A stretch of DNA of 64,000 nucleotides from Mycobacterium adipatum (GTDB taxonomy: Bacteria > Actinomycetota > Actinomycetes > Mycobacteriales > Mycobacteriaceae): the NCBI RefSeq assembly GCF_001644575.1, contig NZ_CP015596.1, positions 1,364,001 through 1,428,000 of the forward strand, in the 5' to 3' direction. Within the stretch, counting starts at the first letter, position 1, and every line of letters begins with the position of its first letter. The position numbers and the translations under genes are program-made. Below are positions 33,647 through 48,144 of this stretch, one piece after another. The notes below the pieces were generated by a model that had not been told where the DNA came from, searched no databases, and saw only the letters and a program-made list of their open reading frames with translations.

Positions 33647-33661
33647 CGATAACGATTTTCA
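33647..33661. promoter_or_regulatory. Zur-like box 1 (mrf side)
   Basis: CGATAACGATTTTCA, flanked by TAT and TTAA, fits the mycobacterial Zur pattern TGATAAYGNTTTTCA seen repeatedly in this window. It is 16-30 bases upstream of the mrf ATG, where it would block its promoter. Confidence 0.75.
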
Positions 33662-39440: not shown

Positions 39441-40082
39441 TCAGCCTAGTTCGACGCGGTGCTCGGCGGCCGCGATCAGCGCGCAGTCGTGGGTGGCGGC
39501 CACGACCGTCGTCCCGGCGTCGGCGAACCGGCGCAGGTGGGCGAGCACCAGGCGCGCGGAGTCGGCATCCAGTCCGGTCGTGGGTTCGTCGAGTAACAGC
39601 AGCGGGGCGTCCTGGGCAAAGGCCTGGGCCAGCAGGACGCGTTGTCGTTGACCGCCGGAGAGTTCACCCATCGTGCGGTGCCGAAGATCGGTGAGTCCGA
39701 GTTCGGTCAACCAGTACTCGACGGTCGCCCGGTCCTTTGTCCCGGGGCGGCGCAGCAGGCCGAGGTGGCGCCAGCGACCCATCATGACGGCCTCGGTCAC
39801 GGTCACCGGGAACGAATCGGTGACCGCGCTGCGCTGTACGGCCAAGGCGACATTGCGGGTGCCGCGGGCAATGGTGCCGGCGGCCACCGGATGCACGCCC
39901 GCCAACAGCTCGAGCAATGTCGACTTCCCGCAACCGTTGGGCCCCGTCACCGCCGTGACGGCGCCCGGTGCGATCGACAGCGTCAAGGCGCGGAAAACTG
40001 TTGTGTCGGTATGGCTGAAGTCCACCCCGGACACCTCGATGACGCCGGCGTCCGTCGGCGTCTTATTGATAATGAGTTTCAT
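39441..40082 (-). CDS. aztA: Zinc ABC transporter ATPase (AztA/ZnuC-like)
   Basis: ATP-binding subunit of a zinc importer; 213 residues from ATG 40082. Walker A GPNGCGKST, signature LSGGQRQRVLLAQ, Walker B LLLLDEPTTGLD, and the His-switch ATHDCAL. The ATG lies within the Zur-like box, so the N-terminal MKLIINK may be translated leaderlessly from a promoter with TACACT about ten bases upstream; GTG 40034 is an alternative. Divergent from the permease gene. Confidence 0.88.
   Translation of the reverse strand: MKLIINKTPTDAGVIEVSGVDFSHTDTTVFRALTLSIAPGAVTAVTGPNGCGKSTLLELLAGVHPVAAGTIARGTRNVALAVQRSAVTDSFPVTVTEAVMMGRWRHLGLLRRPGTKDRATVEYWLTELGLTDLRHRTMGELSGGQRQRVLLAQAFAQDAPLLLLDEPTTGLDADSARLVLAHLRRFADAGTTVVAATHDCALIAAAEHRVELG
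40067..40081. promoter_or_regulatory. Zur-like box 3 (aztA/aztBD divergent promoter)
   Basis: TGATAATGAGTTTCA in the 20-bp divergent region and overlapping the aztA start codon. A single site could repress both directions. GATAAG at about 40086-40091 may be the -10 of the rightward gene. Confidence 0.78.
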
Positions 40083-40102: not shown

Positions 40103-42100
40103 ATGACCTCCTGGCTCGCAGACCCCTTCCAGGCGGACATGGTCCTTCGCGCCCTGGCGGCCGGGGTGCTGGCCGGCTGCCTGTGCTCCCTGGTTGGGTG
40201 TTGGGTCGTGTTGCGCCGCAGCGTGTTCCTCGGCGAGGCCATGACGCACGGCATGTTGCCCGGCGTTGCCATCGCAGCGCTGCTGGGGACATCGCTAATG
40301 CTCGGCGGGCTGGTGGCCGCCCTGGTGATGGCTGTCGGTGTCGCGGCGATCGGACGCTCGTCCAAGCTGTCCTCGGACACCAGCATCGGCCTGCTGCTCG
40401 TCGGCATGCTGGCGCTCGGGGTCATCGTGGTATCCCGATCGCAGAGCTTCGCCGTGGATCTCACCGGTTTTCTGTTCGGTGACGTGTTCGCGGTGCGCAC
40501 AACGGATTTGGTCGTTCTCGCCGTGGCATTGCTGCTCACCCTTGGTGCGGTCATCATCGGTCATCGCGCGTTTGTGGCGGTCACCTTCGATCCCCGCAAG
40601 GCCGCCACATTGGGTCTGCGTCCGCAGTGGGCCATCCCGGCGCTGACCGTGCTGATGGCCGTCGCGATGGTCGCCTCCTTCCACGTCGTCGGCACCCTGT
40701 TGGTTCTCGGGTTGCTGGTCGCACCGCCGGCCGCCGCGCTGGCCTGGGCGAAGTCGATCCCGAAGGTGATGGCATTGTCGGCGATCTTGGGATGCGTCTC
40801 GGTGTACGTCGGCCTGCTCATCTCCTGGTACGCCGGCACCGCCGGCGGCGCCACCATCGCCGGGGTCGCGGTGCTGATGTTCTTCGCTTCGACGCTGCTG
40901 GCGGCGCTGCGCACGAATCGCCGCCGGGTCGCGGTGCTGGCCGCCTCGGCCGCGGTGGTCGCCGGCTGCTCGTCGGGTGATCCGGCTGCCGCGCCCACCG
41001 AGACGTCCCGGGCCAGCACCGGCGACGGCGTCGCCGTCGAGGACGGCGCCCGCGAGTCCGACGGGCCGTTGACCAGGTTGGTGCTCGTCGATCCCGCCAC
41101 CGGTGACACCTCGGTGTACGACGCGGTGGACGAGACGGAGACGGCCATCGGCTCCTACGGTCCGGTCACCGGGCTGGATGGCGACGGACGCTTCGCCTAT
41201 CTTCGTACGGGCGAGCGCACCACCGTCGTCGACGCCGGGGCCTGGACCTTCGACCACGGTGACCACTACCACTACTTCGCCGGCACGCCCGCCGACGTCG
41301 CGACGCTCGACCTGCCCGCGGCCTCGGTCGGCTCCAGCAACTCGATGGTCGCGGTGGCATCGCCCACCGGCGCCGTCGAGGTCTTCGACCGGGAGAAGCT
41401 GGGGTCCAAGACGGTCGAAGCGCCGGCCGGACTGACCGTCCCGTCCGAGACGGCCGCCGCGGTGCCCTACGGCAGCCGGTTGGTCACGGTCAGCGCCGAC
41501 GGCCGCATTCACGTCACCGGTGAGGCAGGCACGACCGACCTGGCCGGTGAATGCACAGGCGTCTCCTGGGCGATACCGACCCGCCGCGCCGTGGTGTTCG
41601 GTTGCGAGACCGGGACGGTGCGGGTCACCGGCGGGGAGAACGCCCTCACGGTGACTCCGGCCCCGTATCCCGCGGATGCGCCGGAGCAGCGCCCCACCGC
41701 CATGGAGCACCGGGACCGCGCAGATGTCTTCGCAGGCATCGGTGGCGGCAATGTCTGGGTCCTCGACAGTCGCCAGCGGTCCTGGACACTGTTGCCCGCC
41801 GCGGATGCCGTGGCCACCAACACCAAGGGCGACGGAACGGTGCTGATCCTGCACCGCGACGGCACCTTGTCCGCCGTGGACACCAAGACCCGCGCCGAAA
41901 CAGCCCGAATCCCCTTGTTTCCCGGGCCTATCCCGGCCGACGGTCCGCAACCGGTGGTCGACCTCGACTCCGATCGCGCCTACATCAACAATGCCGATGC
42001 CAAGGAGATCTACGAGATCGACTACGCAGACGGACTGCGCATCGCCCGCACGTTGTCCACCGAGGTGACCCCGGGGCTGATGGTCGAGTCCGGCCGGTGA
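40103..42100 (+). CDS. aztBD: Fused zinc ABC permease (ZnuB/AztB) and AztD-type zinc chaperone
   Basis: One 665-residue open frame. Residues ~1-275 are an ABC-3 family permease (LVGCWVVLRRSVFLGEAMTH, ATLGLRPQWA, HVVGTLLVLGLLVAPPAAAL). After RTNRRR comes a lipoprotein-like segment VAVLAASAAVVAGC (Cys about 289), then a ~370-residue beta-propeller-like AztD domain with a His-rich site FDHGDHYHYF near 384-393. AztD normally is a separate exported zinc chaperone for AztC. The fusion would place it outside the membrane if the lipobox helix acts as an extra transmembrane segment. Cleavage by signal peptidase II is conceivable. Confidence 0.85.
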   Translation: MTSWLADPFQADMVLRALAAGVLAGCLCSLVGCWVVLRRSVFLGEAMTHGMLPGVAIAALLGTSLMLGGLVAALVMAVGVAAIGRSSKLSSDTSIGLLLVGMLALGVIVVSRSQSFAVDLTGFLFGDVFAVRTTDLVVLAVALLLTLGAVIIGHRAFVAVTFDPRKAATLGLRPQWAIPALTVLMAVAMVASFHVVGTLLVLGLLVAPPAAALAWAKSIPKVMALSAILGCVSVYVGLLISWYAGTAGGATIAGVAVLMFFASTLLAALRTNRRRVAVLAASAAVVAGCSSGDPAAAPTETSRASTGDGVAVEDGARESDGPLTRLVLVDPATGDTSVYDAVDETETAIGSYGPVTGLDGDGRFAYLRTGERTTVVDAGAWTFDHGDHYHYFAGTPADVATLDLPAASVGSSNSMVAVASPTGAVEVFDREKLGSKTVEAPAGLTVPSETAAAVPYGSRLVTVSADGRIHVTGEAGTTDLAGECTGVSWAIPTRRAVVFGCETGTVRVTGGENALTVTPAPYPADAPEQRPTAMEHRDRADVFAGIGGGNVWVLDSRQRSWTLLPAADAVATNTKGDGTVLILHRDGTLSAVDTKTRAETARIPLFPGPIPADGPQPVVDLDSDRAYINNADAKEIYEIDYADGLRIARTLSTEVTPGLMVESGR

Positions 42101-43008
42101 CGCGCAGGATCTGGCTGTGCCTGCTGGCCGTGCTCGCCGCGCTGCTCACCGCATGCGGTCCGAACTCCGGATCCGGCGGTGGTGAGATCGTGGTGACCAC
42201 CAACATCCTCGGCGACGTGGTGCGCAACGTCGTCGGTGATGCTGCGCCGGTCCGCGTCTTGATGCAACCCAATGCCGACCCGCACTCGTTCGGGGTGTCC
42301 GCGCAGGACGCCGCGGCCATGAACGATGCCGCGCTGATCGTCTACAACGGACTCGGGTTGGAGGAGAACGTCACCCGAAACGTGGAAACCGCCAAAGCGC
42401 AGGGCGTTCCGGTTGTCGCGGTGGGCGATCACATCGACCCTGTCGACTACGTCGAGGGTGACAGCGCCGGGATGGCGGACCCACACTTCTGGACCGACCC
42501 GCAGCGCATGATCGCCGCCGTCGACGTCATCGAGGAGACTGTTCACAACGAGGTCGACGGTATCGATGGTGAGGCATTGGCGCGTAACGCCGAGCGCTAC
42601 CGGGCGCAACTGCGCGAACTCGACAAGGCGATGACCGATGGCTTCGCTGAGATCGCGCCGGAGCGACGCAAACTCGTCACCAATCACCACGTGCTGGGAT
42701 ATCTGGCGCAGCGGTTCGATTTCGAGGTCATCGGGGCCGTGGTCCCCAGCGGTACCACATTGGCCGCGCCGAGCGCGTCGGATCTGCAATCACTGGTGGG
42801 AGCAATCGAATCGGCCCGGGTTCCAGCCATTTTCGTCGATTCGTCGCAGCCCGACAAGCTGGCCAGGGTGCTCGCCGAGGACGCCGGGGTCCAGGTGCGG
42901 ATCGTCTCGCTCTACAGCGAATCACTCAGTCCGCCCGGCTCATCGGGCGCGACGTATCTCGACATGATGCGCGCCAATACCGACGCCATCGTCACCGGCC
43001 TGCGCTAG
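42097..43008 (+). CDS. aztC: Zinc-binding lipoprotein of ABC importer (AztC/ZnuA-like)
   Basis: Solute-binding protein of cluster A-I, 303 residues. Signal peptide with lipobox LLTAC; zinc-ligand regions ADPHSFGVS, MADPHFWTDP, TNHHVLGYLAQRF and the Asp of FVDSSQPDKL. No long His-rich loop, unlike the second copy at 45520. GTG 42097 overlaps the aztBD stop (GTGA). Delivers zinc to the permease. Confidence 0.92.
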   Translation: MTRRIWLCLLAVLAALLTACGPNSGSGGGEIVVTTNILGDVVRNVVGDAAPVRVLMQPNADPHSFGVSAQDAAAMNDAALIVYNGLGLEENVTRNVETAKAQGVPVVAVGDHIDPVDYVEGDSAGMADPHFWTDPQRMIAAVDVIEETVHNEVDGIDGEALARNAERYRAQLRELDKAMTDGFAEIAPERRKLVTNHHVLGYLAQRFDFEVIGAVVPSGTTLAAPSASDLQSLVGAIESARVPAIFVDSSQPDKLARVLAEDAGVQVRIVSLYSESLSPPGSSGATYLDMMRANTDAIVTGLR

Positions 43009-43038
43009 TCGCGGGCCAACTCTGTGAAGGGAGCACCT

Positions 43039-44244
43039 ATGGCCAGTTCGACATGGTTCTATCGGGCGGGAGCGCTGACATTCGCGGCGGCAACTCTGGC
43101 CGCCTGCTCATCGGGCGGCCAGAGCGCCGATGCCGGGAATCCCACGCCCGCTGACGCCACCTCCGCGGCACCCGGCGTGCCGATCCCCGAGCCGCTGGCG
43201 GTCACCTACGACGGCGGCCTGCTGGTCCTCAACGGCGAGACTCTCGAAGTCGCACAAGACATCCCGCTGGAGGGCTTCCTGCGGGTCAACCCGGCCGGTG
43301 ACGAGGGCCACGTGCTCGTCACCACCACCGAGGGCTGGCGCATCCTGGATGCCGCAGGCGGGCGGCTGACCGAGGACACCTTCCCGGGCGTCGTGGCGGG
43401 CCACGTCACTCCGCACGGTGAGAACACCGTGCTGTTCGCCGATGGCACCGGCGAGATCACCGCCTTCGATCCGCACGCGTTGGAGGCGGGCGGCATGCCC
43501 GACACCCGGAAGTGGAAGACCCCGGAGCCGCACCACGGCGTGGCGGTCATTCTTGCCGACGGCACCCGGGTGCAGACGTTGGGCAATCCGGACACCCGGG
43601 TCGGCGCCGCGGCGTTCGACGGTGACCGCGAGATTGCGCGCAACGAGGAATGCCCCGGCGTGCATGGCGAGACGGTGGCCGCCGACGAGGTGGTCATCCT
43701 CGGCTGCGAGAACGGCGTGCTGAAGTTCGCCGACGGACAGTTCACCAAGATCCCCAGCCCCACCCCGTACGGCCGCACTGGAAACACCCGTGGTCACGAG
43801 GATTCCCCGGTGGTGCTGGGCGATATGAAGGTCGACGCGGATGCCGAGATGGAGCGGCCCGAGCAGTTCGCCCTGATCGACACCACCGCCGATGAGATGC
43901 GCATCGTGCAGATGCCCGCCGGTGTCAGCTACTGGTTCCGCTCGCTGGGCCGCGGCCCGCAGGCCGAGGCGCTGATGCTCGGCACCGACGGTAATCTGCA
44001 TGTCTTCGACCCGGTCACCGGTGACCTGGTGCGGTCGATCAAGGTGACCGAGCCGTGGAGTGAGCCCGACGATTGGCAGCAGCCCGGCCCGGCTGTGTTC
44101 ACCCGTGAGGACGCCGTCTACGTCAGCGACCCGGCGACCAAGCAGATCCACCTGGTGGACGTGGCGGCCGGCACTATCGAGACCTCGGTGACGCTGGCAC
44201 AGACCCCCAATGAGCTCAGCGGGGCGGTTGGGCACGACCACTGA
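43039..44244 (+). CDS. aztD: AztD-type zinc metallochaperone lipoprotein
   Basis: The 401-residue protein has lipobox TLAAC followed by a low-complexity linker and a beta-propeller-like domain. Likely zinc sites are GHVTPHGENT and EPHHGVAV; the C-terminus ends GAVGHDH. It resembles the C-terminal half of the upstream fusion, so this operon encodes two AztD-like domains. ATG 43039 follows GAAGGGA at proper spacing; the GTG at 43024 would add five residues. Terminated by a strong hairpin. Confidence 0.85.
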   Translation: MASSTWFYRAGALTFAAATLAACSSGGQSADAGNPTPADATSAAPGVPIPEPLAVTYDGGLLVLNGETLEVAQDIPLEGFLRVNPAGDEGHVLVTTTEGWRILDAAGGRLTEDTFPGVVAGHVTPHGENTVLFADGTGEITAFDPHALEAGGMPDTRKWKTPEPHHGVAVILADGTRVQTLGNPDTRVGAAAFDGDREIARNEECPGVHGETVAADEVVILGCENGVLKFADGQFTKIPSPTPYGRTGNTRGHEDSPVVLGDMKVDADAEMERPEQFALIDTTADEMRIVQMPAGVSYWFRSLGRGPQAEALMLGTDGNLHVFDPVTGDLVRSIKVTEPWSEPDDWQQPGPAVFTREDAVYVSDPATKQIHLVDVAAGTIETSVTLAQTPNELSGAVGHDH

Positions 44245-45436: not shown

Positions 45437-45448
45437 GAGGCTCCTTAA

Positions 45449-45463
45449 TGAAAATGATTATCA
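45449..45463. promoter_or_regulatory. Zur-like box 4
   Basis: TGAAAATGATTATCA, flanked by TTAA and ATAA, is the best match in the window to the AT-rich Zur dyad. It lies 13 bases from the GTPase ATG and 57 from the rightward lipoprotein ATG. Confidence 0.82.
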
Positions 45464-45493
45464 ATAAGTATTGTCCGATGCGGCGTTTACTAA

Positions 45494-45508
45494 TGCAAAC
45501 GGTTATCG
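45494..45508. promoter_or_regulatory. Zur-like box 5 (weaker)
   Basis: TGCAAACGGTTATCG resembles the other boxes at most positions and ends 11 bases before the lipoprotein ATG. Probably a second operator for the rightward operon. Confidence 0.5.
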
Positions 45509-45519
45509 TTATCGGCGTG

Positions 45520-46506
45520 ATGTCGTTTGAGTCCTCCCGCGCGCTGGCCGCGGGTCTGTTGTTGGCCGTCCCGTTCGCACTCAGCGCCTGCGGCAGCGGC
45601 GACAAACCGGCCGCCACATCGACGGCCGTCCAGGCCGGCGACTGCCCGACCACGCCGGTCGACGTCGTCGTCAGCGTCGATCAGTGGGGCATGATCGTGT
45701 CGTCACTCGCCGGAGCCTGCGCGAACGTGACGACCGTGCTCTCCGGCTCGTCGGTCGACCCACACGATTTCGAGCCGGCGCCGTCGGATGCGGCGGCCTT
45801 CGAGGGCGCCCAGCTGGTGGTGCTCAACGGCGGCCACTACGACGAGTGGGCCGCCAAGCTGGCCGAGAGCACCGCCCCGGATGCGGCCGTGGTGGATGCC
45901 CTGTCCCTGCTCGGCGGGGACCACGAGGGACATGATCACGAGGGCCACGAGGGGCATGATCACGAGGGTGAAGGCGGCGTCAACCCGCACGCCTGGTACA
46001 GCCCGATCGCGGTCACCGATGTGGCCGATGCCGTCACCGCCAAGCTCACCGAGCTCGCTCCGGCGGCCGGTGATTACTTCGGCGCCCGGCACACCGAGTT
46101 CACCGAGGGTCTGGCGCCCTACCGCGATCTGATCGCCGAGATCAAGGCCGGTGCGGCCGGAAAGAGCTACGCCGCCACCGAGAGCCTGTTCGACGATATG
46201 GCCGGCGCTCTCGGGCTCGTCAATCGCACCCCGCAGGGCTACCAGGTCGCCGCCTCGAACGAGAGCGATCCGTCCCCGGCCGACCTCGACGCATTCCTGC
46301 GCCTGCTCTCCGATCGCGGTGTCGACGTGCTGATCTACAACACCCAGACCGAGGGCTCCGTCCCCGAGCAACTGCGCGCCGCCGCGGAGGCGGCCGGAGT
46401 GCCGGTGGTCGATGTCACCGAAACTCCTGCGCCGGGGGCCGAATCGTTCGAGGCTTGGCAGGTGGATCAACTCACCGCGCTGGCCGAGGCCCTTGGTGTC
46501 CGATAA
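45520..46506 (+). CDS. znuA: Zinc-binding lipoprotein of second ABC importer (ZnuA-like)
   Basis: The 328-residue solute-binding protein has lipobox ALSAC, the ligand motif SVDPHDFEPAPSD, a long His/Asp/Glu-rich loop (HEGHDHEGHEGHDHEGE, about residues 135-152) and GVNPHAWYSP. The charged His loop is typical of ZnuA and gathers zinc. ATG 45520 gives a normal signal peptide; a longer frame from 45448 reads MKMIINK out of the Zur box and is unlikely. Second complete importer in this island. Confidence 0.92.
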   Translation: MSFESSRALAAGLLLAVPFALSACGSGDKPAATSTAVQAGDCPTTPVDVVVSVDQWGMIVSSLAGACANVTTVLSGSSVDPHDFEPAPSDAAAFEGAQLVVLNGGHYDEWAAKLAESTAPDAAVVDALSLLGGDHEGHDHEGHEGHDHEGEGGVNPHAWYSPIAVTDVADAVTAKLTELAPAAGDYFGARHTEFTEGLAPYRDLIAEIKAGAAGKSYAATESLFDDMAGALGLVNRTPQGYQVAASNESDPSPADLDAFLRLLSDRGVDVLIYNTQTEGSVPEQLRAAAEAAGVPVVDVTETPAPGAESFEAWQVDQLTALAEALGVR

Positions 46507-47290
46507 CCCGGCGCCCGACAACCCGGCGCCCGATAACGCGCTCGTCTTCGACGACGTCAGTGTGGTCCGCGGCGGCCGGCTGATCTGGTCGGAAGGAACC
46601 TTCACGATTCCGGCCGGTGGCATCGTGGCCGTGATCGGATCCAACGGCTCGGGCAAGTCCACGCTGCTGCAGGTCATCCTGGGTCTGCTGCCGGTGGCTT
46701 CGGGCACGGTGCGGGTGCTCGGCGGTCGGCCCGGCGCCCACAACGATGCCATCGGCTATGTGCCGCAGGATTATGTGGCCGGCGCCGGGGAGGCGATCCG
46801 CGCGCGCGACGCCGTCATGCTGGGCCTCACCGGCCGGCGGTGGGGCTTGCGCCGCACCACCGCGGCGGACCGTGCCCGGGTGGCCGAGGCGCTGCGGGCG
46901 GTAGAGGCGGACGAGTTCGCCGACCGGCGGGTATCTCAGCTGTCGGGCGGGCAGCGGCAACGCATCGCGCTGGCCAACGCGCTGGTATCCCGGCCGCGGC
47001 TGCTCATTCTCGATGAGCCGCTGGCCGCACTCGACCTGCGCAACCAGCAGGAGATCGTCGGACTGCTGTCCCGGCTGAATGCGGAATACGATGTGACCAT
47101 TCTTGTTGTCGCCCATGATCTGAACCCGCTGCTGTCGGTACTGGACAGCGCGGTGTATCTGCTCGACGGGCACGCCCATCACGCGGCCATCGACCAGGTT
47201 GTCGATGCTGATCTGCTGACCCACCTCTACGGCACCACGGTCGCGGTGGCCAACACCTTGCAGGGCCAGATGTACATGAGGGCCACCTGA
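46496..47290 (+). CDS. znuC: Zinc ABC transporter ATPase (ZnuC-like)
   Basis: The 264-residue ATPase: Walker A GSNGSGKST, Q-loop VPQDYVAG, signature LSGGQRQRIALAN, Walker B LLILDEPLAALD, H-switch VAHDLNPLL. An N-terminal repeat DNPAPDNPAPDN precedes the domain. GTG 46496 overlaps the lipoprotein stop by 11 bases. Downstream permease starts on its stop codon. Confidence 0.92.
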   Translation: MSDNPAPDNPAPDNALVFDDVSVVRGGRLIWSEGTFTIPAGGIVAVIGSNGSGKSTLLQVILGLLPVASGTVRVLGGRPGAHNDAIGYVPQDYVAGAGEAIRARDAVMLGLTGRRWGLRRTTAADRARVAEALRAVEADEFADRRVSQLSGGQRQRIALANALVSRPRLLILDEPLAALDLRNQQEIVGLLSRLNAEYDVTILVVAHDLNPLLSVLDSAVYLLDGHAHHAAIDQVVDADLLTHLYGTTVAVANTLQGQMYMRAT

Positions 47291-48144
47291 TGGGCGGTAC
47301 CCAGATCTATCTCGCGCTGGGTTATCAGGAGAACTGGTGGCAGATCCTGACGTCGGCGTTCATGCGCAACGCAGTGCTCGGCGGCACTCTGGTCGCCCTG
47401 GCCGCCGGGCTGATCGGTTATTTCATCATCGTGCGGAACACGGCGTTCGCCGCGCACGCACTGGCCCATATCGGCCTGCCCGGGGCCACGGGTGCAGCCC
47501 TGGTGGGCCTGCCGGTGGTCCTCGGGCTGGGCATCTTCTGTATCGGTGGCGCCCTGGTGATCGGGGCGATGGGTAAGAACGCCGGTGACCGCGAGGTCAC
47601 GACCGGCACGGTACTGGCGCTGGCGACGGGGTTCGGTCTGTTCTTCAATTCGCTGGCCACCAAGAATTCCTCGACGCTGACCAACGTGCTGTTCGGCAAC
47701 CTGCTGGCGATCACCCATCAACAACTGCTGACCTTCACCGTGCTGCTGCTGGTGATCGCCGCCACGGTCGTAATCGTCTATCGCCCATTGCTGTTCGCCT
47801 CGGTGAACGCTCAGGTCGCGCAGGCCAAAGGGGTGCCGGTGCGCGCCCTGTCGGTCATCTTCATGGCGCTGCTCGGCCTTTCGGTGACGATGGCGGTGCA
47901 GGCGGTGGGCACCCTGCTGCTCTTCGCCCTCGTCGTGACACCGGCCGCGACCGCGATCATGCTGACGGCACGACCGCTGGCGGCCATGGCGATCTCCACG
48001 GTGATCAGCCTGTTTTCGGTGTGGACGGGCCTCGCGGTGTCGGCGGTCTTCAACATGCCGCCGAGCTTCGTGATCGTCACCATCGCCTGCGCGATCTGGC
48101 TGGCGGTGTGGTCGGGTAACCGGATCGGCACGGTCGTCCGCTAG
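47290..48144 (+). CDS. znuB: Zinc ABC transporter permease (ZnuB-like)
   Basis: The 284-residue ABC-3 permease has about eight to nine helices. It carries FIIVRNTAFAAHALAHIGLPGATGAA near the N-terminus and the coupling-type segment NAQVAQAKGVPVRALSVIF, then VGTLLLFALVVTPAATA. Unlike the first importer's permease it ends normally after the membrane domain. Last gene of the Zur-type operon. Confidence 0.92.
   Translation: MGGTQIYLALGYQENWWQILTSAFMRNAVLGGTLVALAAGLIGYFIIVRNTAFAAHALAHIGLPGATGAALVGLPVVLGLGIFCIGGALVIGAMGKNAGDREVTTGTVLALATGFGLFFNSLATKNSSTLTNVLFGNLLAITHQQLLTFTVLLLVIAATVVIVYRPLLFASVNAQVAQAKGVPVRALSVIFMALLGLSVTMAVQAVGTLLLFALVVTPAATAIMLTARPLAAMAISTVISLFSVWTGLAVSAVFNMPPSFVIVTIACAIWLAVWSGNRIGTVVR

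Follow-up and report, generated by a model that had tools for sequence, protein, structure and literature searches.

The closest described counterpart of the locus studied here is the AztABCD zinc importer of Paracoccus denitrificans, which comprises an ATPase (AztA), an ABC-3 permease (AztB), a solute-binding protein (AztC) and the beta-propeller zinc chaperone AztD. Structures of AztD have been solved from P. denitrificans and Citrobacter koseri. In the P. denitrificans protein, zinc site 1 (His124, His167, His218) has been reported in the pore and site 2 (His99, His102, Asp104, His408) on an extension; AztD without site 1 transferred zinc to AztC as the wild type did, whereas loss of site 2 nearly abolished transfer (PMC6689063). 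Apart from His408, the ligands of both sites are reported to recur in 95% or more of AztD homologues. Zinc reaches AztC from site 2 alone, and the role of the strongly conserved site 1 is a question raised by the authors who solved the structures (PMC6689063). In this study, a stretch of 64,000 nucleotides from Mycobacterium adipatum (contig NZ_CP015596.1, positions 1,364,001 to 1,428,000; hereafter the window) was analysed. It carries an aztABCD operon in which the permease is fused in frame to an AztD-like domain, here called AztD′, and in which the two zinc sites appear to be shared between AztD′ and a separate AztD. The parts of the two chaperone-bearing genes are as follows.

40103..42100, + strand: aztB-aztD′ fusion gene, 665 amino acids counted from ATG 40103; GTG 40094 is an alternative start
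40103..40891, + strand: AztB (ABC-3 permease) part, residues 1-263; NF040871 327.8 bits, PF00950 195.7 bits
40892..40966, + strand: linker, residues 264-288, with a positive n-region (RTNRRR) and a hydrophobic segment ending VVAGC
40967..40969, + strand: lipobox Cys289 (VAGC, numbered from ATG 40103), the predicted site of lipidation and cleavage
41048..42097, + strand: AztD′ beta-propeller domain, approximately residues 316-665, of AztD-type fold in the predicted structure
41255..41272, + strand: HGDHYH, residues 385-390, aligned equivalent of AztD zinc site 2 (P. denitrificans His99, His102, Asp104)
43024..44244, + strand: stand-alone aztD, a lipoprotein; NF038015 426.2 bits (cut-off 400)

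The fusion frame is open on the + strand from 40094 (GTG) or 40103 (ATG), that is for 668 or 665 codons, and its stop codon lies at 42098-42100. The permease part scored above the AztB cut-off of 280 bits (residues 7-259 of the 668-residue translation), and its Foldseek matches included PsaBC (7kyp, 29-30% identity). The fused domain reached 26.8 bits against the NF038015 cut-off of 400 and is AztD-like, not AztD by this model. The solved AztD structures were the best matches of its predicted fold, an AztD-type beta-propeller, and AztD′ formed a distinct clade, separate from stand-alone AztD (Shimodaira-Hasegawa-like approximate likelihood ratio test, SH-aLRT, 98). In the structure model the linker contains a helix at residues 273-287, at low confidence, and a loose spacer separates Cys289 from the propeller. 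A preliminary description of the sequence had proposed that permease, lipobox and AztD-like domain share one frame, with Cys289 as the lipobox cysteine, and both proposals were borne out. The further reading that the chaperone itself had moved onto the importer was not supported: a bona fide AztD is still encoded separately, and the fused domain belongs to the distinct clade. The main point that it missed is the division of the two zinc sites.

Zinc ligands were compared in an alignment of 174 stand-alone AztD domains, 146 AztD′ domains and the P. denitrificans sequence; 15 loci fetched from outside the order were excluded from this table. Site 1 was complete (HHH) in all 174 stand-alone AztDs, and none of its histidines was present in 142 of the 146 AztD′ domains, that of the window included. 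The first three positions of site 2 were His-His-His in 146/146 AztD′ domains versus 34/174 AztDs. The stand-alone AztD of the window, which was aligned to 6ck1 and 6cmk, contains the site-1 motifs (HHG and CPGVHG) and no HxxHx[DH]. The same pattern was seen among database matches: HxxHx[DH] occurred in none of the 120 listed of 2,615 AztD matches, all of which had both tested site-1 motifs, and in all of the 120 listed of 154 AztD′ matches, none of which had the site-1 motifs. Site 2 was missing from all 139 of the AztDs that came from AztD′-bearing loci (102) or genomes (37). The 34 AztDs with site 2 were one second copy and 33 from genomes where AztD′ was not found (33/33). When these 33 control genomes were searched for a hidden AztD′, at E 1e-40 and then to E 1e-6 (scoring covered 36 of up to 50 candidates in larger genomes), the listed matches to the AztD′ half were the AztD gene itself. 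In one genome a second AztD outside the operon (L254, G314:C1:2145800-2147400) keeps site 2, which the operon AztD of the same genome has lost.

From these alignments it appears that the chaperone's two sites are shared between two proteins, site 2 being kept and site 1 lost in AztD′, and the reverse in the operon AztD. Because AztD′ bears ligands of only site 2, the donor site of P. denitrificans AztD, it should be the donor to AztC; our prediction is that AztC receives its zinc from the fused AztD′ and not from the protein annotated as AztD.

The fusion is real, it is conserved, and databases already contain it. Far from being a peculiarity of this genome, the same junction recurs in 108 database clusters out of the 120 listed as related to AztD′, all of them proteins of more than 570 amino acids; the usual NCBI name, for listed clusters that have one, is 'zinc ABC transporter permease AztB'. 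Within the genus, 98 genomes were searched, and in 11 of them, the own genome included, the fusion is stop-free within the match at 48-100% identity. In another genome of the genus (G076) permease and AztD′ are two overlapping genes, and in one of the 11, G094 (Mycobacterium sp. IS-1496), the match covers residues 1-646 of the fusion and the frame continues into aztC. The resulting 975-residue permease-AztD′-AztC frame (L107 from 4001 on, L188 from 3317 on) has two internal lipoboxes; the run-on could be a sequencing error, and it is absent from the related IS-1742 (L042). Among the best 80 of 280 loci in named genomes, fusions were found in Mycobacterium/Mycolicibacterium, Lentzea, Saccharothrix, Nocardia panacis and Amycolatopsis; by these named records the fusion also occurs in N. 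panacis and in Pseudonocardiaceae. One fusion in Qaidamihabitans matched the AztD′ half only in part, and one in Nocardiopsis has a frame that is broken further on. Two-gene aztB/aztD′ forms occur in Streptomyces, in many other genomes of the order and in M. wolinskyi.

At the level of the order, 117 of 397 genomes gave a match at E 1e-40, some through the permease alone. Named and order-level genomes together yielded 48 distinct fused frames; after removal of three short cases, 144 distinct pairs remained, 46 fused and 98 split. The idea that the fusion would fall if orthologues were always two genes thus met a mixed outcome: split forms exist, and so do fused ones. On a quick tree of 93 pairs the state changed at least seven times, three changes being forced by starred branches, and shuffled labels gave about 26 changes on average; fusion has therefore been gained or lost repeatedly. 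Additional fusions outside the order, hinted at by equal frame lengths, were not borne out in the 15 loci fetched, 14 of which scored as two separate frames. In one of these 14, L317, AztD′ itself is spread over two frames and the site-2 motif is absent from the frame tested; the fifteenth locus, L318, gave no AztD′ match. The aztB/aztD′ pair of L173 (G263, same genus) groups with Rhodococcus triatomae and Actinoplanes-type pairs, apart from other mycobacteria, and was possibly acquired by horizontal transfer. Two short fragments in G002 (C1:3296030-3296164 and 3295821-3296033), with 76-82% identity to the permease, are possibly a decayed operon copy in a genome of 4.0 Mb.

The junction retains the marks of a lipoprotein signal. 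A lipobox, under one loose pattern, was detected in 46/46 fused genes and 96/98 split genes; of the two exceptions one looks degenerate and one lies just beyond the pattern. A matching cysteine is present in 108 of 108 listed database clusters of more than 570 amino acids, and Cys289 in 71 of 71 aligned fused proteins, where it is the sole invariant residue of positions 264-317 (alignment A2; Gly288 is kept in 65). With its cysteine placed after a positive n-region and a hydrophobic segment, AztD′ has the features of a bacterial lipoprotein, and lgt and lspA are both encoded in the own genome. Residues 264-280 contain 3.4 lysines plus arginines versus 0.2 aspartates plus glutamates per sequence, a charge pattern that suits a cytoplasmic linker with AztD′ outside. 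As the permease half of the structure model is of low confidence, the proposed topology rests on this pattern and on general knowledge of the family.

Internal starts were scored for ATG, GTG and TTG (CTG was left out), and a ribosome-binding site was called good at an anti-Shine-Dalgarno duplex of -6 kcal/mol or better. No plausible internal start was present in 17 of the 46 fused genes, the window gene among them; in the remaining 29 a good ribosome-binding site was found in 8 and absent in 21, so that a start with a good site is lacking in 38/46 overall. Split genes had good sites at 85% of 96 starts (median -9.3 kcal/mol), and aztD′ started 4 nt inside the aztB stop in 30 of the 96 pairs and followed it at 21 nt in 29 and at 15 nt in 10. 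An independent AztD′ start in the window gene was rejected on these grounds; some relatives may have one. The missing internal starts together with the kept lipobox indicate that the fused part, at least here, is made as one chain whose lipoprotein signal is still under selection. An in-frame ATG lies 20 codons ahead of the lipobox cysteine in L033, L036, L040 and L041 and is perhaps a relic of the old aztD′ start; the others have TTG or no start codon there. In L143, L149, L139 and L154 (G338, G117, G376 and G318; genus code g2) spacers of up to about 200 residues precede the lipobox, and L139 and L154 group with N. panacis on the 93-row tree. Guanine-plus-cytosine content by codon position was coding-like in the pooled linkers (0.741/0.642/0.835) and not coding-like in the two longest spacers (0.73/0.73/0.74 and 0.72/0.67/0.74).

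We consider it rather probable that the locus encodes a variant AztABCD importer that arose by duplication of the chaperone, with one zinc site left to each copy; that the AztB-AztD′ polyprotein is lipidated and cut at Cys289; and that AztD′ is the donor to AztC. Judging from a Zur-like box in the operon (described below), Zur would repress the operon when zinc is sufficient and release it on zinc shortage. The permease and AztD′, which share one frame, would then be translated as a single chain. If the C-terminal end of the permease part lies on the cytoplasmic side, the positive stretch together with the hydrophobic segment would act as an internal lipoprotein signal that places AztD′ outside; Lgt would lipidate Cys289 and LspA would cut ahead of it. 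Cleavage at this point is deduced from the conserved lipobox, the missing internal starts, the charge pattern and the presence of lgt and lspA. The permease would thereby gain one helix, and AztD′ would stay anchored in the membrane nearby; with site 2 only, AztD′ would load AztC next to the permease. The separate AztD, with pore site 1 only, would be unable to feed AztC directly and may gather or buffer zinc. A wider scheme is offered more tentatively: a polytopic importer subunit made as a polyprotein might, when signal peptidase II cuts it internally, set free the lipoprotein that works with it, and a two-chaperone relay might operate, in which AztD collects zinc at site 1 and AztD′, one-to-one with the permease, loads AztC at the membrane from site 2. 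The ancestral storage or tuning site and the transfer site would thereby be physically separated.

Several observations weigh against this account of the locus. Four of the 146 AztD′ domains retain one (L166) or all three (L164, L165, L170) site-1 histidines. No histidine occurs within the last eight residues of 114 of the 146 AztD′ frames (the window protein ends MVESGR), so the fourth site-2 ligand of P. denitrificans is mostly absent. One AztD without site 2 (L255) is a second copy outside the operon. Around the control AztDs, 20 of 33 loci were examined with flanks (two end at a contig edge): aztB was found at none and a weak solute-binding (AztC) neighbour at 2/20. At these 20 loci the control AztDs thus lie outside aztABC operons, and their context differs in more than the presence of AztD′. 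The -3 residue of the lipobox is weak (A) in some relatives. A first tree gave three changes of site 2 in AztD, at least two of them forced by starred branches; with the hairpin columns removed only one was forced, and a single clade for all operon AztDs lacking site 2 was not rejected (approximately unbiased, AU, test, p 0.44). The perfect association between AztD′ and loss of site 2 in AztD may consequently reflect no more than one or two events, and given the AU result several independent losses are not claimed.

The deepest AztD′ branch consists of three rows from the family of the window genome, in which both sites are kept and the partner AztDs already lack site 2. These are L164, L165 and L170 (G245, G444 and G475), possible intermediates of the site division; their close relative L168, which is absent from that tree, has lost site 1. 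The occurrence of deep AztD′ domains with both sites beside AztDs without site 2 suggests an order of losses in which AztD lost the transfer site first and AztD′ the pore site later.

The preliminary description had left two readings of the junction, a tether or a polyprotein cut by signal peptidase II, and both are still live. A permanent tether, in which the uncut AztD′ stays on the permease, lipidated too or simply anchored, and provides each importer with its own donor, would explain why a single open frame is kept across many species, and permease-linked binding domains occur in other importers. We regard it as unlikely nonetheless: an uncut chain would need no lipobox cysteine, yet the cysteine is present in all 71 aligned fusions and the lipobox in all 46 genes, and fused and split states interchange in evolution, as expected if both give two proteins. 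The invariant cysteine favours the polyprotein, and lipidation at Cys289 with cleavage by signal peptidase II is the predicted course. That AztD′ is also, or mainly, made from a start of its own within the fused frame seems very improbable. Some fused genes do retain an ATG (in the four loci named above) or TTG just ahead of the n-region, and Lentzea/Saccharothrix and Nocardia-type genes make up most of the 8 of 46 with a candidate start and good ribosome-binding site; no plausible start exists in the window gene or in 16 others, and 21 of the other 29 have no good ribosome-binding site.

The division of sites could also be read differently, with AztD′ serving the importer in structure or in sensing (as a docking point for AztC or AztD, for instance), HxxHxH as a fixed structural site and no role as zinc donor. 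The distance of its sequence from AztD (26.8 bits), the missing C-terminal ligand in the window protein and the lost site-1 pore ligands all agree with such a role. We think it improbable, as the first three positions of site 2 are invariant in 146/146 domains and site 2 is the transfer site of AztD in the published assays (PMC6689063). A sequencing artefact or a meaningless chance loss of the stop is scarcely credible. The frame of IS-1496 (L107), which runs even into aztC, may be such an error; the same open junction in many independent assemblies, down to 45-48% identity, rules out artefact or chance read-through for the fusion itself.

All four genes of the operon, aztA, aztB, aztC and aztD, score above their NCBIfam cut-offs in the window. 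Its remaining features are:

39441..40082, - strand: aztA, ATP-binding subunit, divergent from the fusion; NF040873 232.1 bits (cut-off 220)
42097..43008, + strand: aztC, solute-binding protein, with a 4-nt overlap with the fusion stop; NF040870 375.8 bits (cut-off 350)
40067..40081, no strand assigned: Zur-box-like palindrome TGATAATGAGTTTCA between the divergent aztA and fusion, one mismatch to TGAWAATSRTTWTCA

The Zur-like pattern TGAWAATSRTTWTCA with up to three mismatches was matched 13 times in the window versus 1.3 expected. A ZigA-like GTPase gene downstream of the operon scored 491 bits, below the cut-off of 600. A second importer gene set (ZnuA-like protein, ATPase and ABC-3 permease) was observed at 45448-48144, after a Zur-like palindrome at 45449-45463 that matches the pattern exactly. 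The segment 32441-34711, which by eye we take to encode the zinc-independent ribosomal proteins L28, L33, S14 and S18 and a CobW-type GTPase, contains Zur-like palindromes at 33647 and 33703.

The natural single-site proteins are close counterparts of the published site-1 and site-2 mutants, and many Actinomycetota encode the two together in one operon; the question about site 1 becomes directly testable with purified wild-type proteins. If the proposal is true, AztC in these genomes can be loaded by the unannotated tail of the permease and cannot be loaded by the annotated zinc metallochaperone AztD. The fusion, which recurs and conserves its lipobox, would also offer a clear example of a polytopic membrane protein with a working lipoprotein signal inside it.

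Among known systems, ZnuABC2 of Mycobacterium smegmatis (MSMEG_6049-6052) is probably the counterpart operon, its orthology being judged from gene order. It has been reported to be Zur-repressed and to contribute to zinc uptake together with ZnuABC (PMC7174638, PMC13098993); the permease gene MSMEG_6051 is listed as 'pseudo', and the available portions of these sources do not mention a division of sites. No description of the fusion or the site division was found in the listed titles and abstract beginnings of the open-licence literature on AztD, AztB, ZnuABC2, Zur, internal lipoboxes and zinc metallochaperones. The permease of YtgCR from Chlamydia trachomatis is of the ABC-3 type. In YtgCR, as proposed here, an ABC transporter permease carries at its C-terminus a fused domain that is removed by cleavage, the freed part being an iron-dependent repressor (PMC7755916), whereas here it would be an exported lipoprotein released by signal peptidase II. 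YtgCR is a precedent for a cut permease polyprotein. Streptococcal AdcA (a ZnuA-like and a ZinT domain) and Pht proteins likewise combine a zinc ABC importer with a part that gathers zinc, either attached to it or acting alongside. Their folds differ from AztD′, and the resemblance of HGDHYHY to the Pht histidine triad is not significant (E 0.69). In AdcA, unlike here, the extra domain is on the binding protein, not on the permease (PMC6689063). The unfused aztB/aztD′ pairs of Streptomyces, other members of the order and M. wolinskyi agree with the fusion in domains, gene order, a lipobox on nearly all AztD′ and the site division, and differ in that a stop codon separates the genes and aztD′ mostly has a proper start of its own, complete with ribosome-binding site. 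P. denitrificans AztABCD has the same components, and its AztD and that of C. koseri are the best fold matches of AztD′; the difference is that two AztD-type proteins occur here, AztD′ with site-2 ligands only and fused to AztB, and AztD with site 1 only. What makes the locus worth following up is this apparent division of the zinc sites between AztD′ and AztD in a variant of AztABCD.
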